Below, piece by piece: positions 1 to 17,475 of a stretch of 24,915 nucleotides of DNA. The position numbers and the translations under genes are program-made. The first letter of the stretch is position 1, and every line of letters starts with the position of its first letter. The stretch is from a virus. The stretch spans positions 1 to 24,915 of the IMG/VR virus record IMGVR_UViG_3300025570_000105. One strand, 5' to 3'. A model generated the notes under the pieces. It searched no databases, was not told where the DNA came from, and worked only from the letters and a program-made list of their open reading frames with translations.

Positions 1-451
1 CAGCTTTTTGTTGGTCTAATAAATAACCACTTTGTTTAACAAGTTTCTTACCTAAATTACCAACTTGTTTACCAACGTCTTTGAATGTAACCGCTAATAA
101 TTTAACTTCTTTAACAGCATCTTCATGAATATTTAACCTTTTTTGAGCTTTAATAATATCCTCATCAAGAAGTTCAATCTCAGTTTTTTTATGAGTAATT
201 AAACGTTCTTTTTTATCAATTTCGCCTTGACTAACCTTACTACCCTTGGCTTTCATCGCAAGTAAAATTGCCTCCTGTTTTTCTAATTTTTCATTTAAAG
301 CAGTACGTTTCCCTGTAATAAAATTTATATTAGATTGTAATTCTTTAGTTTCGTTTAAAAGTTTATTGTAATCACTTAAACTTTTAGAAGCTTCACGAAT
401 TAATTTAACTTTCTCAACATGTGCATTAATGTCATCGTCTTTCTTAGCCAT
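1..451 (-). CDS. Partial coiled-coil virion protein, possible start of the tail tape measure
   Basis: The gene starts with ATG at 451 and stays open to the left edge (150 codons seen), so its C-terminus is missing. The visible part is highly charged and helical, rich in Lys, Glu, Leu and Ile with heptad-like spacing, broken by a short GSKVSQGE turn. It ends with a stretch containing VGKQVGNLGKKLVKQSG. No catalytic motif or membrane segment is visible. Its start overlaps the stop of the 401-aa gene by 8 nt, so the two are translationally linked. In contractile-tailed phages the tape measure gene follows sheath, tube and the assembly chaperones, which is this position. That placement and the coiled-coil character suggest a tape measure N-terminus, but the family was not recognised and another coiled-coil baseplate protein is possible. 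Confidence 0.7.
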   Translation of the reverse strand, partial: MAKKDDDINAHVEKVKLIREASKSLSDYNKLLNETKELQSNINFITGKRTALNEKLEKQEAILLAMKAKGSKVSQGEIDKKERLITHKKTEIELLDEDIIKAQKRLNIHEDAVKEVKLLAVTFKDVGKQVGNLGKKLVKQSGYLLDQQKA

Positions 452-1649
452 TCTTTACTATTTTTATCGCACCTTTACCATATAGTTTACAACTAAGGTC
501 TTTATTACAAAAATTTATTTTTACATTATAAATTGATGGTTCTAACTCTTTTAATATTTCTAATTCCCAATGACCTTGTTTTTTAGTGCCAATTTTAATT
601 ATATTACCTTTTTGAATTTTACCAGTGTATAATTTATTATTTTTAATTAATTTATGTGAAGCGTTAACAATAACACTATTCGTTAATAATTTAAATCTAA
701 CGTCATTTCCTTTAGTTAAGTAAGAGTCGCTGGTTGATTTCTGATTTAAAATTTTATTAATTTGATTAACACCTTTAGGGGATGCGTTTGTTAATGTATC
801 CCAAAAACTTGGTGTTTTTTCAATAGCCTGTAAGAATTCAGGGCTAACTTCAATCTTATCAATTAACTCTTTTTTAGTGAGTTCTCTTTCTTCATCACTT
901 TCTAAATCTTCATCACCTTTATGAACCTCAATTGCTATTATATTATTTATTGGTAATAATTTATTATTTGAATACAGATTCAATACTAAATCATTATTTT
1001 TAAATTTAACTAAATCATTAAAATCTAAATAAATGTTACGATTTCTAAAAATATTAGCTAATTTATCCATTCTACCACTATTAGCATTACCACTTTCACT
1101 TTCAGTTTCAATATCTTCTAACGTACAAGTCAACCGTTTAGGTTCAACCCCAACAACCTTCAATAAGATAGTATTCACTAAAACCACATTTTTACCTTTA
1201 TTTTCTTCCGATGAAATATAAATAACATCACCTTCCCCTGTAGTCTTTAATTCAGAGTTCATATCATCTATTCTTTGAACATTTTCTGGGTCATGTACAT
1301 CAATTACTTCAATATCACCACCACTTTTACCAGTTAAAAATTCTTTTACAGATAATTTCTCTTCTTTACCTTCAAATTTAGAGCTTTTTTTATCACTATC
1401 ATATTCATGTAAAGTGAGTATACTATCTACCATAGCATCTTTAGTAAAAGTATACCAGATTTCACTTTGTTTATCCACCATAACAATCCTACCAGCTAAA
1501 TTTTCAACTATCTCAAATGCCCTTTCAGACCCATCCTTTAAAACAAGTCTAACCATATTGCCATCAGCCATTGATGAAAAACTATCCTTTAACTGAGCTT
1601 CAATCAATAATGAATTGAGAATACTAAAAGCTTTCGTTATATCAACCAT
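444..1649 (-). CDS. Conserved hypothetical virion or assembly protein, 401 aa
   Basis: The product is a soluble 401-aa protein with no membrane segment, signal peptide or catalytic motif that I recognise. The N-terminal 100 residues look alpha/beta, the middle is acidic and low in complexity (runs of Glu, Ser and Asp at about 180-195 and 245-260), and the last 90 residues are Lys-rich and beta-like. ATG at 1649 follows a hairpin terminator and an ATATTTAT box, so it probably opens a transcription unit, continuing into the coiled-coil gene through an 8-nt overlap. Its place between the tail-assembly chaperone ORFs and a possible tape measure suggests a tail or baseplate assembly role. That is context only. 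Confidence 0.75.
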   Translation of the reverse strand: MVDITKAFSILNSLLIEAQLKDSFSSMADGNMVRLVLKDGSERAFEIVENLAGRIVMVDKQSEIWYTFTKDAMVDSILTLHEYDSDKKSSKFEGKEEKLSVKEFLTGKSGGDIEVIDVHDPENVQRIDDMNSELKTTGEGDVIYISSEENKGKNVVLVNTILLKVVGVEPKRLTCTLEDIETESESGNANSGRMDKLANIFRNRNIYLDFNDLVKFKNNDLVLNLYSNNKLLPINNIIAIEVHKGDEDLESDEERELTKKELIDKIEVSPEFLQAIEKTPSFWDTLTNASPKGVNQINKILNQKSTSDSYLTKGNDVRFKLLTNSVIVNASHKLIKNNKLYTGKIQKGNIIKIGTKKQGHWELEILKELEPSIYNVKINFCNKDLSCKLYGKGAIKIVKNG

Positions 1650-1711: not shown

Positions 1712-1984
1712 CTATCTTGGTGTAAATGTCCTTGTTTGGCTATTTTTACCTGTTTTAACTACTTTAGCACCAGAAGATTGTTTTTCTTCTGAATCTAAGT
1801 GTTCGTTTTGTAATGTAATAATAAAGAACCTTCTTTCGTAAGTCGGCATTTTCATTACATCGTCATAAGAAAACCCTAAATGCTTTTTACAAATATAGAT
1901 TTCCTCAAGTAAATGACGTTTATACTCCAAGTTCAGGCCAAAAAAATGATAGGTTAAGGGGAAGAAACGTGTCGATTGACCCAC
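1712..1984 (-). CDS. Small tail-assembly chaperone-like ORF, probably made by frameshift from the upstream gene
   Basis: The frame is open for 90 codons from a GTG at 1984, but it has no ATG until residue 44, and its first 15 codons overlap the end of the 370-aa gene in another frame. The conserved-looking part begins near residue 17 (LNLEYKRHLLEEIY) and continues through FSYDDVMKMPTYERRFF. This resembles the small helical proteins (gpT or gp51-like) paired with tail-assembly chaperones, where an 'mP..ER' segment follows a helix. A run of seven T in the overlap (1940-1946) would allow a +1 or -2 shift from the 370-aa frame, giving a fusion of about 439 aa. The alternative is independent initiation at GTG or TTG, for which I see no convincing ribosome site. 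The TAG stop touches a terminator hairpin. Confidence 0.7.
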   Translation of the reverse strand: MGQSTRFFPLTYHFFGLNLEYKRHLLEEIYICKKHLGFSYDDVMKMPTYERRFFIITLQNEHLDSEEKQSSGAKVVKTGKNSQTRTFTPR

Positions 1985-3032
1985 CCCCAGGAGTCTGAAC
2001 AGTGATATTCATATCAATGCCAGATTCAATTTCATTAACTTTTTTTCTAAAAGTCCTAACGTCACCAATTCTCATTTTCTTATCAATGAAATCACTAACG
2101 ATTTCTTTATCATAATTACCATCAATTGCAATAATTTGCCTTTTCAAAGTATATGTTGATGCATCATTAAATTCGGGGCCAGATTCTTCAGTCATTTTTT
2201 CAATATGCTCTTCAATCTCATCAACATCACCAACATTTAATAATCTATAAGTAACTGTACTTTGACTAATAGGTAATTTATATGTAAAGTGACCATCTTC
2301 ATTAGGTTTTTCAGTTAAATACTTAATACCCAATTTAGACAAATCTATTTCAGCATCAAATTGTTTATACTCATTTTCAGGGTCTGATAATTTAATATTG
2401 TACATTGCACCATAACCAGTAGCACGTAACCAAATCATGATTGCATTCCTGTCTCCAACATGTAAATCTTTATATTTAATTGAAGAATCTAACATTTTTC
2501 TATTAATTAGAATTTCTAAAAATTTTCCTGACTTTAAAAGGTTTGGGTTTGTGATGATATTCTCATCCATAGCGTTTAAATAAGCTACTTTTAATGAACT
2601 TTTACAGTTTTTGTATAATAACCCTTCACTTGGCAATTTTATTAGGTCAAACGGTACGTTTTCTTGTGGTCTACTTAATTCGGCATATTTATCCTCATCA
2701 GGTAACTCAAAATTTTTGTGTGATTTAACTTCGGGTTGTGAATAAGTGATTTTAGCTTTACTTTCATCGATAAAATCCGATTCAATACCTTGAGACTCTG
2801 CTTTTTTCTTAGCAACTAATTCGTCTCTTAATCTTAGCTGTTCAGATAACTTATCAAGACTATCTTTAGTCATTTGGGCTTGAGCATCTAACTCACCATT
2901 AGGTTTATTCTTTTCGATAACACCTATTTCATTACTGGCTTGGGCAGCAATTTTAGTGCCCGTTTCGTTAGCCTCTTTCATAGCGTCAGACATTTTATCT
3001 GATGCTGGAAATACTTGTGGTTTATTTTCCAT
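1920..3032 (-). CDS. T4 gp26/PF12322-like baseplate hub or tail-assembly chaperone
   Basis: The 370-aa product has a charged, Gln/Lys/Glu-rich N-terminal extension (residues 1-115, probably helical or disordered). A globular part follows, with FDLIKLPSEGLLY at 128-140 and LHVGDRNAIMIWLRATGYGAMY-type sequence at 190-211. This LPS.G..Y...D...lR..gYG..Y pattern is what I associate with the T4 baseplate protein family of gp26. T4 gp26 is about 208 aa, so the extension explains most of the extra length. The gene lies after sheath and tube and before a possible tape measure, the usual slot for the tail-assembly chaperone. Its last 22 codons overlap the 90-aa ORF in another frame at a T7 run, recalling the frameshifted chaperone pairs of P2 (E/E+E') and lambda (G/GT). 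The family call is moderate and the chaperone role is inferred. Confidence 0.7.
   Translation of the reverse strand: MENKPQVFPASDKMSDAMKEANETGTKIAAQASNEIGVIEKNKPNGELDAQAQMTKDSLDKLSEQLRLRDELVAKKKAESQGIESDFIDESKAKITYSQPEVKSHKNFELPDEDKYAELSRPQENVPFDLIKLPSEGLLYKNCKSSLKVAYLNAMDENIITNPNLLKSGKFLEILINRKMLDSSIKYKDLHVGDRNAIMIWLRATGYGAMYNIKLSDPENEYKQFDAEIDLSKLGIKYLTEKPNEDGHFTYKLPISQSTVTYRLLNVGDVDEIEEHIEKMTEESGPEFNDASTYTLKRQIIAIDGNYDKEIVSDFIDKKMRIGDVRTFRKKVNEIESGIDMNITVQTPGGGSIDTFLPLNLSFFWPELGV
1938..1949 (-). other. Candidate programmed frameshift site (T7 run)
   Basis: On the coding strand the 370-aa frame reads TCA TTT TTT TGG CCT. The 90-aa frame reads CAT TTT TTT GGC CTG over the same bases. A tRNA-Phe slipping +1 from TTT to TTT re-pairs perfectly, with a TGG codon waiting in the A site. 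A -2 slip would also enter this frame. A -1 slip reaches a TGA within three codons and can be excluded. The sequence shows the overlap and slippery run; use of the site is inferred. Confidence 0.5.
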
Positions 3033-3093: not shown

Positions 3094-3375
3094 CTAATCT
3101 AATTCCATATCGGTGATTCTTTCACCATCTTCATCAGAAAACCATTGACTACTTTCAACATCAGTTGGTTCTGGTTGATTTAATAGACACCCACAATCTT
3201 CTTCAATTTCTTCAGTTTCCTCAATAGTTTCCATATCATCACCTAAAAACATCGCTTCATCAATATCTTCTTCATTGGCATACTTCCCATCCCAACTAAA
3301 TGCACTTTCATTACATCTTTGTTCAAAAAGCATATTAGCTTTTTTCATTGCAATTTTTTTATCTTGTCTTCTCAT
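3094..3375 (-). CDS. Small acidic protein with shared MRRxDKK N-terminal tag (copy 3)
   Basis: This 93-aa protein opens with MRRQDKKIAMKKANMLFEQR, nearly the same basic amphipathic segment that starts the two genes upstream. After residue 22 it differs: a very acidic region (IEETEEIEEDCGC around 57-69) with a CGC pair, and an acidic C-terminus. No known domain was recognised. Its first 17 nt overlap the end of the 155-aa gene, so the tag codons double as the upstream gene's last codons, suggesting coupled translation. The cluster lies in the late tail region. The shared tag on different bodies suggests a targeting or binding signal such as loading into the virion, but nothing in the sequence proves this. 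Confidence 0.75.
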   Translation of the reverse strand: MRRQDKKIAMKKANMLFEQRCNESAFSWDGKYANEEDIDEAMFLGDDMETIEETEEIEEDCGCLLNQPEPTDVESSQWFSDEDGERITDMELD

Positions 3376-3826: not shown

Positions 3827-3978
3827 TATTTTAACATTCTAGATAATTCAGGAAATATGTCTGGAACATATGTATACTCTATTTTTTTCTCCTGAATCGT
3901 TGGGTCTTCGGCATTAACCCTTTCTTGAAAACGCTTATTAGCTTCCACCATAGCCGTTTTTTTATCTTGTCTTCTCAT
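3826..3978 (-). CDS. 50-aa protein with shared MRRxDKK N-terminal tag (copy 1)
   Basis: A short complete ORF of 50 codons runs from ATG at 3978 to TAA at 3826-3828. The N-terminus, MRRQDKKTAMVEANKRFQER, aligns residue for residue with the tags of the next two genes (pattern MRRxDKKxxMxxxNxxFxxR). The remaining 28 residues hold a Tyr/Pro-containing stretch and end in SRMLK. It starts 5 nt after the HExxH gene and has an ATATTTAT box at 3986-3993, and its stop overlaps the next ATG (TAATG). The matching tag and tight packing make it a real gene despite its size. The function is not known. Confidence 0.72.
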   Translation of the reverse strand: MRRQDKKTAMVEANKRFQERVNAEDPTIQEKKIEYTYVPDIFPELSRMLK

Positions 3979-3983
3979 AACTT

Positions 3984-4328
3984 TTATAAATATTTAACCC
4001 ATGCCCAGAATTTTCTAGTTTTAAGATAATCTGGGTTTCCTTCATTTGTTTTAGCCTCTCTTTCAAAAGAAAGGTTTTGATATGCTTTAGTACCAAATAT
4101 AAATAATTTAATAAACCACTCTAATGTATAAAAAACATAAAATGGTATTACCAACATTTCAATTTGTTGTTTTATATGAATACTTTCATGTCTAATTATA
4201 TTTTTTGGGTTATTTTTATACTTCTCACGTAAGATTATAAATGGGAATAATGTAATTCCACCTATTGACATAAAAATGCTAAGGTTTTTTAAAAAGTTGT
4301 CGTTGTATTTAATTATTGGTATCTTCAT
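3984..4328 (-). CDS. Small membrane protein with HExxH metalloprotease-like motif
   Basis: The 114-aa product has a hydrophobic segment at about 14-33 and another at about 58-78. Between them lies RHESIH (His47-Glu48-x-x-His51), an HExxH zinc-site motif. After the second segment comes SFEREA (Glu89/Glu91), which could give the third ligand as in gluzincins. The C-terminus ends FWAWVKYL. I associate this arrangement (HE.IH..QQ.E......Y..E.........Y....FE.EA) with short conserved hypothetical proteins of Bacteroidota, so it may be host-derived. At this length it is either a minimal membrane peptidase or a degenerate relative. It has its own box at 4333-4340 and follows a strong terminator. Roles in lysis or envelope crossing are possible but unproven. 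Confidence 0.75.
   Translation of the reverse strand: MKIPIIKYNDNFLKNLSIFMSIGGITLFPFIILREKYKNNPKNIIRHESIHIKQQIEMLVIPFYVFYTLEWFIKLFIFGTKAYQNLSFEREAKTNEGNPDYLKTRKFWAWVKYL
3986..3993 (-). promoter_or_regulatory. ATATTTAT box before the tagged small-gene cluster
   Basis: The core overlaps the last codons and stop of the HExxH gene and lies 8 nt before the ATG of the 50-aa gene. At so short a distance the transcript would be nearly leaderless. Confidence 0.35.
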
Positions 4329-4599: not shown

Positions 4600-5088
4600 T
4601 TAGAATAATAAAATTGCTCTATCAAATCTTAATGTTGCGTTAACTTCAGCTATCCCATCATCTTCCATTGATAAATCACCAAATCCAACGTTGGTTAACA
4701 TAGTCCCTTGTAATTGCCATTTCTCAACAACAACTCCAGTTGGGTCTAACATTTCTATTTCAACATCTTTTTTATATCCAGCAGCATAACCTTGTCTACC
4801 TGTTACAGATTCAGATTGTAATCTAACCCATTCCATAATAGCTTGAGATGTAGATGGTCCAATAGCGTCTCTAAACACTACTTCAATAGTTTCCCATGTA
4901 AATCTACCAATAACCCACGTTGATGTGTTTAAGAATGGTATTTCAACTTCGCCTTGCGTAATTGAAGGACGTGATGCGCTAGATAACCACCATTGTTGAA
5001 TACCTAATTCAGCTGGAAATCTCATTAACCATCTATTCTTTTTCTTTGGCTCATAAGGTACTGGCATTTTCATTAGTAAATCACTCAT
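4600..5088 (-). CDS. Tail tube protein (T4 gp19-like)
   Basis: The 162-aa product matches T4 gp19 (163 aa) in length and pattern: an N-terminal MPVPYEPKKKNRWLMRFP entry, a beta-rich core with RPSITQGEVEIPFLN and TWETIEVVFRDAIGPSTSQAIMEWV, then YKKDVEIEMLDPTGVVVEKWQLQG and a C-terminal strand ending in LRFDRAILLF. Such proteins form the inner tube of contractile tails as stacked hexamers. The gene follows the sheath gene, as in T4 (18-19). It has an A-rich leader of about 40 nt and an extended TTACATATTTAT box (5127-5138) overlapping a hairpin after the sheath stop, fitting strong separate late expression. Confidence 0.93.
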   Translation of the reverse strand: MSDLLMKMPVPYEPKKKNRWLMRFPAELGIQQWWLSSASRPSITQGEVEIPFLNTSTWVIGRFTWETIEVVFRDAIGPSTSQAIMEWVRLQSESVTGRQGYAAGYKKDVEIEMLDPTGVVVEKWQLQGTMLTNVGFGDLSMEDDGIAEVNATLRFDRAILLF

Positions 5089-5174: not shown

Positions 5175-7580
5175 TTATACGTCTTCAAAAGAAGCACCAG
5201 TATTCATTACAACAAATTCAACAGTTATGAACTCTAAAGCTCTAGTTGGTTTGATGAAAATTCTACCATTTAACTCACCTCTATCAATTGATTCTGGTGA
5301 AGTATCAACTTCCACACGGAAATCTGTAAGACCTCTTTCACTTCTAATGTTTTCAAGAATTGGGTTAACCAATGACTTGAATTGATTTCTTACTACCTCA
5401 TCATTTTGTTCAAATAATAATCTTATTGATACAGCAGAAATTAATTTTCTAGCTTGTAATAATAATCTTCTAACGTTAAGTCTGTTTAATGCAGTTTCTT
5501 TAACTTGTAAGTTTTTATTACCAAATATAATTAAACCTTCAGAAGCAAACGTTGCGATTGGGTTAATTCTACCCTCATACAATGTATCTCTTTCATCTAA
5601 AGTTAATTTTTTTCTTGCTTTGATACCACTTACAACACCTCTTTGAACACCCGCCACAGCAAACCATGGGAATGATACATTATCAGTTAATGCAATGTTT
5701 CTAACAACATCTCTAGTTGGTGGTAAGTAAACTAATACTTCATTATCACTATCTTTTACTTGTATCCAAGGCCAGTATGTTGCAGTATAGTTACTATCTA
5801 TTCCTGTGTTATCTAATCTATTAACTAAATCATCAACCTCAATCACCGCTTCATTTTCATAATCTGGTGTTGTTGCAATATATATTGAATCACATCTTTT
5901 TTCTTCTACCATTTCAATAGTAGCGTCAACTAAATTTGTATTATTTAAAGTATCAATACCTGGTGTTGCTAATACATTAATGTTAATTGCTTCAGGGTTA
6001 TTGAAAGTGTTAATTGCTTCAAAATAAGCATAGTAATCAGAAGTAGTTCCTTCGTCACCAGTACTTGTTATTTTTATATCAATCGCACCACTAGATTCAG
6101 CTAAATCACTTTTAGTTTGACCTTTAGCGTAAGTGTCGGTATTAGTTCTACCATCTCTATATATATCCCATCCATCAAAACCACCGTAAGGTGCCATCGT
6201 GAATTTTCTTGAATAAATTTTATTATAAGTAGTGCCAGTTAAATCTAAATCATCGTCAGTTTTAAATGGATAAAGACCAGCGTCTAATATAGAACCATTG
6301 ACTGTCAATCCACTCGCATCGATATCCATATGGAATCCATTAGTCATACCACTTGTTACCGTAATATCAGTACCTAAGTAGTTAAAGAAATTTTGGTCAA
6401 TACCTACAGTATCAGATAAACCTAAATAGATTTTTCTAATTTTAGAGTAAGGTAAGTATTCGGTATTATAGTTAATTGAAGGTGCTAATTCACCACCACT
6501 GTAAACCCTTGCAGGTAAACCTGTGAAACCAGCTGGAAATGAAGTTGATGTATCTTCATCAATATCCAATTCAAGTAATACGTAATTTGAATTAGATGCG
6601 TAAAAACCATCTAACGTACCGATTCTTCTACCAATAAAATTATCAGAAGTTGGGTCCATAGTACATCTAGAATATCTTTCTAATGTAATTGGATTTGCGT
6701 CAGTATCGTAAAATGCTCTAACTCTAACATCGAATTCTCTAGCGTCAGGTTTAATATTTTCGATAGAAATTTTAACTTCTGAATTTGCAGAAGTACCATC
6801 AGAAATTGTAATTAATCTAAATAATTTTTTAATAACCTCACCATTAACCTCTGAGATAACCCATGGTGTAACAGCTGGTAAATATTCAGTTTTGTAATCA
6901 GAAAATGTAGTTCCATTATCAACCAAAGTTGTACTTAATCCAGTTATTTCTACATTAGTGATTAATTCTTCTAACATATTAGAATAAATTTCTTCAACAT
7001 AAATAGGGGCTTGACCAACATCAGCTTTAGTTCCTAATACTCTAGTAATGAAACTTTTCTTTGTAGAATCAAGTGAAACTGTATAAGAAAACCCAGAACC
7101 ACTAAGAGTGAAATCTGCTTTAGCGTCAGTTGTTGAACCAGTTAAAGTTGGGTCAATTGATAAATCACTTGTACCCCAAATTAGGTTTTCAGAAGCGTCA
7201 TAAGAAGCTCTACTTCTTAAAAGTGCTATTACTTGGTTATTATCGGCTGTTATAGCCCAAGATTGTCCAGCATCATATCCTGAAAAACCTAAAACTCTTG
7301 TTACATAAAGTTGATTTGATTTTGTAAAATATGATTTTGCTATATATGGCAATTCATATTTTGGGTAACCAGTGTCGGTAACTTTTGTTGCGTTTAACCC
7401 ACCAAAGAATGATTTGAACTCGTTAAAGTCAGAAACAAATATTGGTTGGAAAGCTGGACCTTTTGTGGTCTCACCAACTAACCCCAATGTTGTTACACCA
7501 ACTTGACGTGTTACGAATGATAAATCTTTTTCTGAAGTATAAACTCCTGGGCTTACGAATACTCTATTGTTAGAACTCAT
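5175..7580 (-). CDS. Contractile tail sheath protein (T4 gp18-like)
   Basis: The 801-aa product starts SSNNRVFVSPGVYTSEKD, the typical sheath N-terminus (fVsPGVyt.E.D), and has the conserved sheath C-terminus at about 695-801 (LNRLNVRRLLLQARKLI, LFEQNDEVVRNQFKS, RGLTDFRVEVD, GRIFIKPTRALEFITVEFVV). It polymerises around the tail tube and contracts on infection. T4 gp18 is 659 aa, so about 140 extra residues lie mostly in the variable middle, which probably adds surface domains. The downstream gene is the tube. An extended TTACATATTTAT box lies about 43 nt upstream of ATG, followed by an A-rich leader with no Shine-Dalgarno sequence. Confidence 0.95.
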   Translation of the reverse strand: MSSNNRVFVSPGVYTSEKDLSFVTRQVGVTTLGLVGETTKGPAFQPIFVSDFNEFKSFFGGLNATKVTDTGYPKYELPYIAKSYFTKSNQLYVTRVLGFSGYDAGQSWAITADNNQVIALLRSRASYDASENLIWGTSDLSIDPTLTGSTTDAKADFTLSGSGFSYTVSLDSTKKSFITRVLGTKADVGQAPIYVEEIYSNMLEELITNVEITGLSTTLVDNGTTFSDYKTEYLPAVTPWVISEVNGEVIKKLFRLITISDGTSANSEVKISIENIKPDAREFDVRVRAFYDTDANPITLERYSRCTMDPTSDNFIGRRIGTLDGFYASNSNYVLLELDIDEDTSTSFPAGFTGLPARVYSGGELAPSINYNTEYLPYSKIRKIYLGLSDTVGIDQNFFNYLGTDITVTSGMTNGFHMDIDASGLTVNGSILDAGLYPFKTDDDLDLTGTTYNKIYSRKFTMAPYGGFDGWDIYRDGRTNTDTYAKGQTKSDLAESSGAIDIKITSTGDEGTTSDYYAYFEAINTFNNPEAININVLATPGIDTLNNTNLVDATIEMVEEKRCDSIYIATTPDYENEAVIEVDDLVNRLDNTGIDSNYTATYWPWIQVKDSDNEVLVYLPPTRDVVRNIALTDNVSFPWFAVAGVQRGVVSGIKARKKLTLDERDTLYEGRINPIATFASEGLIIFGNKNLQVKETALNRLNVRRLLLQARKLISAVSIRLLFEQNDEVVRNQFKSLVNPILENIRSERGLTDFRVEVDTSPESIDRGELNGRIFIKPTRALEFITVEFVVMNTGASFEDV

Positions 7581-14323: not shown

Positions 14324-15694
14324 TTAAAAATACAAATAACTTAACCTATTTGACCATAATTTATCTAACGTCTCTTCTCCATTTGACCAAAATGCTGTAT
14401 ATGTGGACCCAGAAATAGTGTCCATTTTTCTTATCTTACAAGCATTAATTTCACCATAACCAATGTAAGTTGTAGTGCCAGAGGTTTCACATGAAAATGT
14501 TATTGGTCCACCAATAAAATACCTATCATCTAAATTTACTTGAACGGTACCACCTGATAATCTATTAAATTCTAATACACCATCAGATGTATTAAAGGTA
14601 GCCCCAGTTAAATAATCATCAGTATTAGCACTTGTATCACCTGATAACGCATATCTATTATCTAAATTATAAACAACAGTACCACCTGATAACATAGTCA
14701 AAGTTACATCACCAGTAGTTATATTAAAATCACCACTAGTTACATAATCATCGGTATTTGTACTTGTATCACCTGATAAAGTATATCTATTATCTAAATC
14801 AACTTGAACTGTCGAACCTGAAATTCTAGTCAATTCAAGAATACCGTTTAAGGCATTAAATGATGCTGAAGTTACATAATCATCGGTATTTGTACTTGTA
14901 TCACCTGATAAAGCATATCTATTATCTAAATCAACTTGAACTGTTGAACCTGATAATAAATTTAAACTCAATACCCCATCATTTGGGTTAAATGTGGCTC
15001 CAGTTAAATAATCGTTATTATTAGTGTCTGTAAATCCTGTTATAAAACCTGTGTCATTATTTAATGATGATAAGTCATGTGTATGTCCTGTTAGGCTATA
15101 TCTATCATCTAAATCTACGTTAAATGTACCGCCAGATAATCTAGTGAATTCTAATAACCCATTTGAAGTGTTAAAAGAAACCCCTGTAACATAATCATCG
15201 GTGTTTGTACTTGTATCACCTGATAAAGCATATCTACCATCTAAATCTTCGGTTATTGTATCACCTGATAACGTTGTTAATGCCAACACTCCTGTTGCAG
15301 TATTAAATGTCATTCCCGTAACTACGTCACTAGAATCATTTGAATTATCGGTGAAATTAGTGGTTAATATATTACCGTCTCTTTGTTGAAGAGTAATTGT
15401 TTTTGTGTTAGTACCACTTACAGTTATACCAGTAATTGAGTCGTCATAAGCTATATCCCAATTAATTGAATTATCTGTGAATCCAGTTATTTCAGATATA
15501 TTATGTGTGTGACCTGTTAAAGTGTATCTACCATCTAAAGGTACGTTAATTGTATTTCCAGAAACAGTTTCTAAAATTAAGTCACCAGACCCAGTATTAA
15601 ATGTAGCACCTGTTATGAACTCAACTGTTGTCCCAGTTGTACCACCACTAATTAATACAGTCTCAAATACAAATGTCTTATTAATATTACTCAT
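14324..15694 (-). CDS. Repeat-containing tail fibre protein
   Basis: The 456-aa product is built mainly from repeats ending in LDxRY (Arg-Tyr at 56, 154, 198, 259, 303, 347 and 391). The regular unit is 44 residues: YxLSGDTSTNTDDYVT, then an xFNxxxGxLxL strand, then LSGxTxxVDLD. Two units carry GHTHN/D, a motif of long tail fibres. The last 65 residues are non-repetitive, with Cys and Trp (SCETSGTTTYIGYGEINACK), and probably form the tip or a trimerisation end. ATG shares one base with the TAA of the 343-aa gene. The N-terminal 20 residues may attach it to the particle. The repeat number may vary between relatives. Confidence 0.85.
   Translation of the reverse strand: MSNINKTFVFETVLISGGTTGTTVEFITGATFNTGSGDLILETVSGNTINVPLDGRYTLTGHTHNISEITGFTDNSINWDIAYDDSITGITVSGTNTKTITLQQRDGNILTTNFTDNSNDSSDVVTGMTFNTATGVLALTTLSGDTITEDLDGRYALSGDTSTNTDDYVTGVSFNTSNGLLEFTRLSGGTFNVDLDDRYSLTGHTHDLSSLNNDTGFITGFTDTNNNDYLTGATFNPNDGVLSLNLLSGSTVQVDLDNRYALSGDTSTNTDDYVTSASFNALNGILELTRISGSTVQVDLDNRYTLSGDTSTNTDDYVTSGDFNITTGDVTLTMLSGGTVVYNLDNRYALSGDTSANTDDYLTGATFNTSDGVLEFNRLSGGTVQVNLDDRYFIGGPITFSCETSGTTTYIGYGEINACKIRKMDTISGSTYTAFWSNGEETLDKLWSNRLSYLYF
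14519..15616 (-). repeat. 132-bp tandem repeats inside the fibre gene
   Basis: Seven related copies encode the LDxRY units. Four intervals between Arg-Tyr positions are exactly 44 codons, while the first (98 codons) and the third (61 codons) contain insertions. At DNA level the TDDYVT/LSGDTS portion is nearly identical among copies, so recombination or slippage here could change fibre length. Confidence 0.85.
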
Positions 15695-16725
15695 TATTTA
15701 ACTAATCCTTTAATTTCAAATTTAGCTTCTTTTGTATCATCTCTATCAACAGTTAACACCATTTCTTCATTAGCTGAGATGTTAAATGGAAATGTTTGTT
15801 GGATACCATTAATTGCTATATTTACATTTGTGACATTTATCACATAATTTATTGATGTTATAAGTGCGTCATATGCACAATTAATAATAAACTCATCAGT
15901 AAAATGATTCGCTTTTATAATCACATTTAAAGATATCTCATCAATATCTTTAAATGACCTAATAACCACTTTAGGTTTAATTACTTTATCTATTATTTCA
16001 GTAAATATGATAGCTCTATTAATTGTTGGAACGAATTCATAATCATCTTCATCTAAAATATATCCCAATACTTTCATTTCGAAATTTTGAACGTAAAACC
16101 TTCTTCTATCAAAATCGTTTATTTGACTTTCATCACCAATTTTTTCTAAATGAATAGGCATTGGATGTCCATTCACATTGATATAGTATTGCCTTGATTG
16201 AAATGTTAATTGAGACTTTCGATTAAACATATTCAAATCTTTCATTCTATTACAAAAGAATCTAACTTCATATGTAACGTCAACTGACGTAGGTTGTGGA
16301 ATTTTATATAAATCACCACCCTTACGACCCCCGTTAAAAGTAGGTACTTTCATATATGTATATAACTTATTACCTGGTATATTCCATATACCAGCTTGGT
16401 TAGTACCAACTTGGATGTCAGGTTTTCTGACTATAGTAATGAAGGGTATTTTAACATTTTTAAATTTATCTGAAGTATCCCATAATTTAGAAAATTCAGC
16501 CCACCTTTGAATTGTTAGAAAAATGACTGGGACTTTCACTCCATTAACCTCTATTTCTAAAATATCATCAACAAATTCAATAAAAGTCTTGTCAATATCC
16601 TCATAATAGATACTTTTTGGTAAATAACTTCCTTTATAATCTATATCATCAAGATAATCTTGTCTCTTTTCAGGTCCAACATTCTGATTTATAAATTTTA
16701 CATTTTTTTTATATCCTTGTGACAT
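15694..16725 (-). CDS. Virion structural protein, tandem paralogue with extra C-terminal domain
   Basis: The 343-aa product is about 235 residues of a domain shared closely with the adjacent 247-aa protein, plus about 105 extra C-terminal residues that look like a beta-sandwich. Shared stretches include VKFINQNVGPEKRQDYLDD, TIVRKPDIQVGTNQAGIWN, SVDVTYEVRFFCNRMKDLN and DFDRRRFYVQNFEMKVLGY. I see no catalytic motif. Position between a possible neck protein and the fibres, upstream of sheath and tube, would suit a tail completion or sheath-stabilising (T4 gp15-like) or connector protein, but I cannot confirm this from the sequence. It starts 6 nt after the 247-aa gene and overlaps the fibre start by one base. 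Confidence 0.75.
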   Translation of the reverse strand: MSQGYKKNVKFINQNVGPEKRQDYLDDIDYKGSYLPKSIYYEDIDKTFIEFVDDILEIEVNGVKVPVIFLTIQRWAEFSKLWDTSDKFKNVKIPFITIVRKPDIQVGTNQAGIWNIPGNKLYTYMKVPTFNGGRKGGDLYKIPQPTSVDVTYEVRFFCNRMKDLNMFNRKSQLTFQSRQYYINVNGHPMPIHLEKIGDESQINDFDRRRFYVQNFEMKVLGYILDEDDYEFVPTINRAIIFTEIIDKVIKPKVVIRSFKDIDEISLNVIIKANHFTDEFIINCAYDALITSINYVINVTNVNIAINGIQQTFPFNISANEEMVLTVDRDDTKEAKFEIKGLVK

Positions 16726-16731
16726 ACAATA

Positions 16732-17475
16732 TTATTCTTCTTTAAACTTAACATTACCTCTATTAATTGTTGGAATGTGTTCATAATCATTTTCATCTAA
16801 AATATATCCCAACACTTTCATTTCGAAATTTTGAACATAAAACCTTCTTCTATCAAAATCGTTTATTTGACTTTCATCACCAATACTTTCTAAATGAATA
16901 GGCATTGGATGTCCATTCACATTAATATAAAATTGTCTGGAATTGAAAGTAGTTTGAACCACTTTATGTAATTTATTTAAATCTTTCATTCTATTACAAA
17001 AGAATCTAACTTCATATGTAACATCAACTGATGTAGGTTGTGGTATTTTATAAGTGTCCATACCTTTACGACCATCGATGAACGTAGGTACTTTCATATA
17101 TGTATATAATTGCTTACCAGGTATATTCCATATACCAGCTTGGTTAGTACCAACTTGAATATCAGGTTTTCTAACTATAGTAATGAAGGGCATTTTAGTA
17201 TTTTTAAATTTATCTGAAAAAGTCCATGTTTTAGAAAATTCAGCCCACCTTTGAATTGTTAGAAAAAGAACTGGGACTGATTCACCATCGATAGATATTA
17301 TCATCTCTTTATCAACAAATTCAATAAAAGTTCTATCAATATCCTCATAACCAACACTTTTTGGTAAATAACTCCCTTTATAATCTATATCATCAAGATA
17401 ATCTTGTCTCTTTTCAGGTCCAACATTCTGATTTATAAATTTTACTTTCTTAATAAAACCTTTAGGTAATCCCAT
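16732..17475 (-). CDS. Virion structural protein, shorter tandem paralogue (possible gp15-like)
   Basis: The 247-aa product matches the first 235 residues of the neighbouring 343-aa protein almost throughout, including identical blocks QNVGPEKRQDYLDDIDYKG and IGDESQINDFDRRRFYVQN. They differ mainly at about 55-65 (EMIISIDGESVPV versus ILEIEVNGVKVPV) and about 165-180. It is beta-rich and ends shortly after the shared domain (NRGNVKFKEE), so it is probably the ancestral form and the longer copy gained a C-terminal domain. It lies 30 nt after the 173-aa gene with no promoter box between, so one transcript is likely. Role as tail completion or neck protein is inferred from gene order only. Confidence 0.75.
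   Translation of the reverse strand: MGLPKGFIKKVKFINQNVGPEKRQDYLDDIDYKGSYLPKSVGYEDIDRTFIEFVDKEMIISIDGESVPVLFLTIQRWAEFSKTWTFSDKFKNTKMPFITIVRKPDIQVGTNQAGIWNIPGKQLYTYMKVPTFIDGRKGMDTYKIPQPTSVDVTYEVRFFCNRMKDLNKLHKVVQTTFNSRQFYINVNGHPMPIHLESIGDESQINDFDRRRFYVQNFEMKVLGYILDENDYEHIPTINRGNVKFKEE

Follow-up and report, generated by a model that had tools for sequence, protein, structure and literature searches.

The window analysed here is the whole 24,915 bases of virus record IMGVR_UViG_3300025570_000105 (IMG/VR), from an uncultured phage. Its minus strand carries a 370-codon gene resembling gene 26 of phage T4 (3032..1920) and, overlapping the end of this gene in another frame, an ORF of 90 codons (1984..1712). 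The question raised by this pair is whether the small ORF is translated by itself or as an extension of the gp26-like protein and, if the latter, in which direction the ribosome shifts. Judging from sequence comparison, the locus very probably specifies a programmed +1 frameshift, which would produce a pair of tail assembly chaperones (TACs) of the λ G/GT type.

The overlapping reading frames

The gp26-like ORF ends LNLSFFWPELGV*, and its product is read as the short tail assembly chaperone (G or TAC-N type). The small ORF lies in the +1 frame relative to it, which is equivalent to -2; the two overlap by 65 nt, and the first ATG of the small ORF is its residue 44. Within the overlap a run of seven T residues (1946-1940, minus strand) is found inside the sequence TCA TTT TTT TGG CCT GA, where a tRNA on the P-site TTT would meet TTT again after moving by +1. 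The slip site itself, TTT TTT TGG, occupies 1938..1946 (minus strand). Past the shift lie 75 codons beginning with GLNLEYKRH, plus the stop (1712..1939, minus strand), so that the predicted fusion comprises 364 + 75 = 439 residues. The -1 frame meets TGA immediately at this junction. Our check of the ORFs agrees on all of these points with the sequence-only reading, which had given the ORF sizes, the overlap, the late ATG, the T-run, a fusion of about 439 residues and the exclusion of a -1 shift.

That reading had also named a sequencing error in the T-run as a danger, since a one-base mistake in a homopolymer could equally split a truly continuous gene into two frames. An identical gp26 with an identical junction is encoded by four further IMG/VR contigs (L002-L005), the junction recurs in diverged relatives, and the same frame relation is seen in GenBank isolates; the probability of an assembly or sequencing error is next to negligible.

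Four of the diverged relatives belong with the window in one clade: L006 (69% identical protein), L017, L230 and L240. All four retain the T7 run within TCA TTT TTT TGG, and also TTTCTTCCCCTTAAC followed by four free bases and then CATTTTTTTGGCCTGA. The sequence CTTCCCCTTAAC (1953..1964, minus strand), directly upstream of the slip site, is the same in five divergent genomes, as is GGGGGTGGGTC (1978..1988, minus strand), a region in which no significant fold was found. When these five genomes are compared at positions where the residue is the same, the codon agrees as well in 113 of 121 pairs within the final 18 columns of gp26, versus 1461 of 2114 elsewhere; two 12-column blocks near the start of the gene are also high (45/50 and 56/64 codon pairs). 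The nucleotides around the slip site are almost frozen in this clade.

Gene neighbourhood and protein matches

Upstream of the pair, on the same strand, are genes for a tail tube protein (4600..5088, minus strand; phrog_4542, E 1.3e-27) and a tail sheath protein (5175..7580, minus strand; phrog_23, E 1e-60). A 401-codon gene (444..1649, minus strand) follows the chaperone genes; its product has no PHROG match at E ≤ 1. The order tube, gp26, C-terminal domain, annotated tape measure is found in Flavobacterium phage immuto, Listeria phage LIS04 and Bacillus phage SP-15 (L019, L021 and L127, respectively). The λ G/GT genes sit between the tube and tape measure genes, and this is the placement observed here, with the tube gene in the window and the tape measure gene in three relatives. 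The position after sheath and tube, ahead of a possible tape measure, had been proposed from the letters alone; for the window, these matches bear out the sheath and the tube.

In the window, small ORFs lie between the tube gene and gp26. Several share an N-terminal tag of approximately 20 residues like MRRxDKKxxMxxVNxLFEQRxLNE; the tag-bearing ORFs start at 3978, 3826 and 3375 (minus strand) in the window, and at 3335, 3687, 4112 and 4569 in L017. The tag is possibly a virion-targeting or cleaved leader, such as T4 internal proteins carry. Also between tube and gp26 is a small protein (3984-4328, minus strand) whose PHROG match is to a protease (phrog_15610, E 1.4e-26) and which has an HExxH-like stretch, RHESIHIK. 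Elsewhere in the window, near fibre-like genes, two adjacent genes (15694-16725 and 16732-17475, minus strand) form a tandem duplication, their products being 82% identical over 238 residues.

The 370-residue protein has no Pfam match at E ≤ 1. It matches the baseplate hub family phrog_150 at E 9e-4, a family that also takes T4 gp26. The AlphaFold model of the window gp26 (mean pLDDT 80.7) was used for the search of viral folds (BFVD), and the model of a T4-like gp51 for the search of PDB folds. The top BFVD match (1.8e-23) is an unnamed phage protein, and the best named one is a baseplate hub subunit of Bacillus phage SP-15 (6.2e-18); the matches include baseplate hub subunits and a "baseplate hub assembly protein, bacteriophage T4-like." PF12322 is matched by the relative L020 (4.3e-15) and shows no match in L019 and L041. 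Two of five records match the gp26 family, L230 barely (24.6 bits versus a cut-off of 24.5), and those of L045, L109 and L006 do not.

A +1 relation conserved among relatives

For the survey we took the best 80 of 594 relatives, together with matches in named phages that were a chosen part. Profile searches placed the gp26 ORF in 121 of 124 loci, and all of these 121 but three, which end at a contig edge, have the downstream domain (118 loci). In 116 of the 118, a count that includes repeats of the same contigs, the domain lies in the +1 frame and overlaps gp26; in the remaining two (L036 and L040) it is a separate gene with its own ATG behind the gp26 stop. Further +1 loci are L125, L126, L127, L129, L137, L230, L240, L245, L248 and L251. 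Named members of the +1 group include Flavobacterium phage immuto, Microcystis phage Mel-JY01, Listeria phage LIS04, Streptococcus phage GXN1, Bacillus phage SP-15 and the Streptomyces phages BRock and GiJojo. The sequence-only reading had called a +1 shift in a gp26 setting unusual; among the relatives examined it is instead the usual arrangement.

The last 60 nt of gp26, with repeats removed, gave 104 distinct +1 3′-ends; left out were L013-L016 (the same contigs as L002-L005), L036, L040, the three truncated loci L043, L044 and L074, and repeated ends. Every one of the 104 possesses a codon capable of +1 re-pairing (TTT followed by T or C, or CTT followed by T) within the part of gp26 where the +1 frame is open. 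The commonest core is that of the window, TTT TTT TGG (64 ends), followed by TTT CTT TGG (16), TTC TTT TGG (8) and other forms (16). Where the second slip position encodes Leu, the codon is CTT in 19 of 21 cases; in the remainder of these genes CTT accounts for 257 of 1497 Leu codons. A stop in the +1 frame no more than 9 nt upstream of the slip codon is present in 11 ends, including most of the L025 group, and in these the shift must happen at or after the slip codon. What is conserved is apparently an overlapping out-of-frame ORF joined at a slippery site, a start codon being wholly absent in just 23 of the 104 ends.

Over the stretch that begins where the +1 frame opens and ends at residue 20 of the domain, these 23 ends contain none of ATG, GTG and TTG; in 74 ends the stretch lacks ATG. 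The 23 ends bear on the possibility that reinitiation or a non-ATG codon lets the small ORF be translated by itself, with no fusion being made. Such translation would be natural for L036 and L040, and it could use the start codon found between the slip codon and residue 20 in 27 of the 104 ends, which is TTG in the window clade. At 75 of 77 cyanophage-type loci of the -1 kind described below, the small ORF has an ATG within its first 13 codons (absent in L192 and L199), so separate translation is possible there as well. It would explain neither the retention of the slip codon in all 104 ends, nor the 23 ends that offer no start, nor the 11 in which the frame is closed just upstream of the slip codon. 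We regard separate translation as very unlikely. Relatives with a start of their own and no slippery run had been named in advance as the outcome that would speak against a frameshift; own starts do occur in L036 and L040, and possible ones in the 27 ends; the slip codon is present in all 104 distinct +1 ends.

A second possibility is that the ribosome passes from one frame to the other by slipping -2 on the T-run, as in phage Mu. The net frame is identical to that reached by +1, and under a permissive rule -2 re-pairing is possible in 92 of the 104 ends, the T7 run of the window included. The remaining 12 ends (the eight with TTC TTT TGG, plus L022, L051, L129 and L137) allow +1 re-pairing and no -2 re-pairing; if all members of the family share one mechanism, it must be +1. 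We regard a -2 shift as very unlikely. The T-run might also act at transcription, RNA polymerase slipping on it to give a mixed mRNA from which the fusion is made. The run of seven in the window would suit this, but the run is broken in the relatives with TTT CTT TGG (16 of 104) and TTC TTT TGG (8 of 104). Ordinary polymerase slippage needs longer runs than these, and the explanation is highly improbable.

The +1 frameshift joining a gp26-like chaperone to the small ORF, as first suggested from the window, is supported by comparison of the genomes: the frame relation in 116 of 118 loci, the re-pairing codon in every distinct end, the 12 ends closed to -2 and the 23 without a start.

Homologues with a -1 relation

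In eight of 12 chosen records gp26 carries T_TTT_TTC, a classic -1 slippery heptamer, at its end or close to it, and the small ORF is in frame -1: KVP40, S-CAM9, S-SM2, Serratia phage BF, E. coli phage 121Q, Vibrio phage 2.275, Pseudomonas phage Paride and Agrobacterium phage Atu_ph07. Of the remaining four, three are +1; L128 (LR756511.1) fits neither class, with an extended, Arg-rich C-terminus on its gp26 and a +2-frame ORF that has an early ATG.

The cyanophage-type set was made up of the best 80 of 598 relatives, 79 of them with the 3′-end (L222 is without it), giving 67 distinct 30-nt ends. All 67 contain T_TTT_TTC in frame. The heptamer is preceded by a Ser codon, always AGT or TCT, in 73 of 77 distinct 60-nt ends; elsewhere in these genes 635 of 1052 Ser codons end in T. 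At the -1 loci L130-L136, L138 and L149-L228 the heptamer leads into a gp51-like ORF, and the records that annotate this ORF give it as a separate gene. By these sequence criteria, a -1 shift appears to take place in the homologues of cyanophages, KVP40 and some jumbo phages, at the Phe-Phe codons that mark the site in the +1 family. Slippage by -1 had been set apart from this locus, which is right for the window but apparently does not extend to these homologues.

T4 gp26 and gp51

PF12322 is matched over the whole profile by both T4 gp26 (residues 1-206, E 8.8e-64) and T4 gp51 (1-201, E 3.9e-52), and phrog_634 is matched by gp51 147-246 and by the small ORFs of KVP40 and S-SM2. We therefore take gp51 to be a paralogue of gp26 with the C-terminal domain attached. 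T4 gp51 would then be a hard-wired long form, T4 having two genes in place of the frameshift; no +1 ORF was found behind gp26 in T4 itself. In a quick, unrooted tree of 49 gp26 and gp51 rows, T4-type gp26 and gp51 each make one starred group; the two are joined with support 91, inside a set with KVP40 and the cyanophages. The labels need four changes in all on this tree.

In profile comparisons the +1 domain scores 92 and 95.5% against the -1 domains. The score between the -1 domain and T4 gp51 is 93%; the direct comparison of the +1 domain with the gp51 C-terminus is weak (9.8%). The +1-type gp26 profile scores 95.5% against cyanophage gp26 and 1.0% against the gp51 N-terminus. In the model of a T4-like gp51, a helix at 196-203 leads into three C-terminal helices, and by the order of elements in the models this helix would be equivalent to the last helix of the window protein (361-364, LSFF). 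The PDB fold search with the gp51 model and PDB sequence searches returned nothing useful.

Searches with some of the +1 domains brought up no strong family of their own in Pfam or PHROG. The window domain matches DUF6760 (PF20546), which we take to be a family of contractile injection systems, at E 9e-4 with 19.6 and 20.2 bits, below the curated cut-off of 27 bits. We do not adopt this identity; two genomes and 14 controls gave no match, in a search that cannot show absence, and no paper naming DUF6760 was found in the literature search.

A review of T4 counts gp26 and gp51 among the chaperones of hub assembly, and describes gp51 as essential and as missing from the completed particle (PMC3004832). 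The same review cites genetic studies that place gp26 in the finished hub, a poor fit to a pure chaperone (PMC3004832).

Search for stimulatory elements

Downstream of the +1 sites, folding is barely stronger than in the control (mean z -0.55 versus 0.15; 109 ends, five of them repeats), and the flanks in the window fold no better than shuffled sequences. For the -1 family the mean z is -1.52 versus -0.91 in the control (28 chosen loci). Folds downstream and upstream being weak or mixed in both families, we make no claim for a stimulatory RNA structure.

Where Gly occurs four codons (12 nt) before the slip codon, it is encoded by GGG in 43 of 72 distinct ends, versus 66 of 875 Gly codons elsewhere. 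SD-like tetranucleotides are present at -12 in 28 of 109 ends (five repeats included), and no enrichment of an SD-like element was seen close to the slip codon. GGG was rejected as an SD-like stimulator; its spacing is unlike that in RF2, and the window, with AAC at -12, has no Gly at that position.

Comparison with known frameshifts

Most long-tailed phages apparently slip backward (-1) at their tail chaperone genes; the λ-type frameshifts were reportedly described by Xu et al. in 2004. Vladimirov, Gautam and Davidson are said to have dealt in 2022 with the chaperone genes of T4-like phages, probably including the identification of T4 gp26 and gp51. Frameshifts in tail chaperone genes are already known, and probably so are the T4 gp26/gp51 and -1 parts of the present finding; the broad +1 form looks new. 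A literature search, with most subscription papers outside its reach, found no title on +1 frameshifting in gp26-type genes.

The window would resemble λ gpG/gpGT in pairing a short chaperone with a form extended by frameshifting, an arrangement described in a review as widely conserved in long-tailed phages "except T4" (PMC5009743). It differs in that λ shifts by -1 and the window family apparently by +1 at YTT_T, in a gp26-family protein. With T4 gp26 and gp51 the likeness is one of homology, both matching PF12322 and gp51 carrying the extra domain; T4 has two genes, KVP40 and the cyanophages appear to be -1, and the window and its relatives are +1. Two other systems are comparable as tail chaperone frameshifts. 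A 2025 paper that cites Vladimirov et al. reports conserved -1 sites in Vandenendeviridae; there and in Andersonviridae, the chaperone frameshifts (at a conserved GTTTTT) are argued for by conservation and the downstream ORF is a C-terminal extension, as here, but the shift is -1 and the phage families are others (PMC12846349). The halovirus HSTV-2, a myovirus of Archaea, has a tail chaperone frameshift described as very likely +1 (PMC5009743).

In the window the slip codon is TTT, followed by TGG; most relatives likewise have T after the slip codon, and some have TTT before C. The site most like this is that of E. coli prfB (RF2), where CTT before T re-pairs in the +1 direction; prfB also has a stop codon in the A site and an SD-like element approximately 3 nt upstream of the slip codon. 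By contrast, none of the 104 ends has a stop in the A site, TGG following the slip codon in 88 of them, and no Shine-Dalgarno sequence is found at the RF2 spacing. To our knowledge, +1 programmed frameshifting outside RF2 genes has been little reported in bacteria and phages. In a 2024 tool paper, CUU before stop codons is among the recorded forward shifts, and a general motif for such shifts is said to be yet unidentified (PMC10885494).

Proposed mechanism and implications

With the +1 frameshift as the preferred reading, most ribosomes would stop at the gp26 stop codon and yield the 370-residue protein. A minority would move one base forward at TCA TTT TTT TGG, tRNA-Phe leaving one TTT and pairing anew with the TTT that overlaps it, or a Leu tRNA re-pairing in the relatives with CTT, and would read on in the +1 frame to give a 439-residue protein resembling a fusion of gp26 with the end of gp51. 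From homology and from λ, we infer both the shifting and its efficiency, and the roles of the two forms: by analogy with λ, the short form would coat the tape measure protein, which the long form would link to the tube subunits.

For the family, we think it likely that the gp26 genes arrive at a common fusion, at a shared Phe-Phe pair, through recoding in opposite directions: one group would shift +1 at YTT_T and the other -1 at T_TTT_TTC, with duplication (T4) or splitting (L036 and L040) elsewhere. The product would be kept while the direction flips. As part of this reading, and likely to the same degree, the +1 YTT_T group would be a large one, of aquatic, Bacteroidota and Gram-positive phages, and the -1 group would comprise cyanophages, KVP40 and several jumbo phages. 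The annotations of immuto and SP-15 give just the end of the +1 ORF (frame checked), and those of LIS04 and GXN1 have nothing there, suggesting that a conserved protein is overlooked in phage records. With 104 distinct +1 sites in one gene, and homologues seemingly shifting the other way, what sets the direction of the shift becomes testable.
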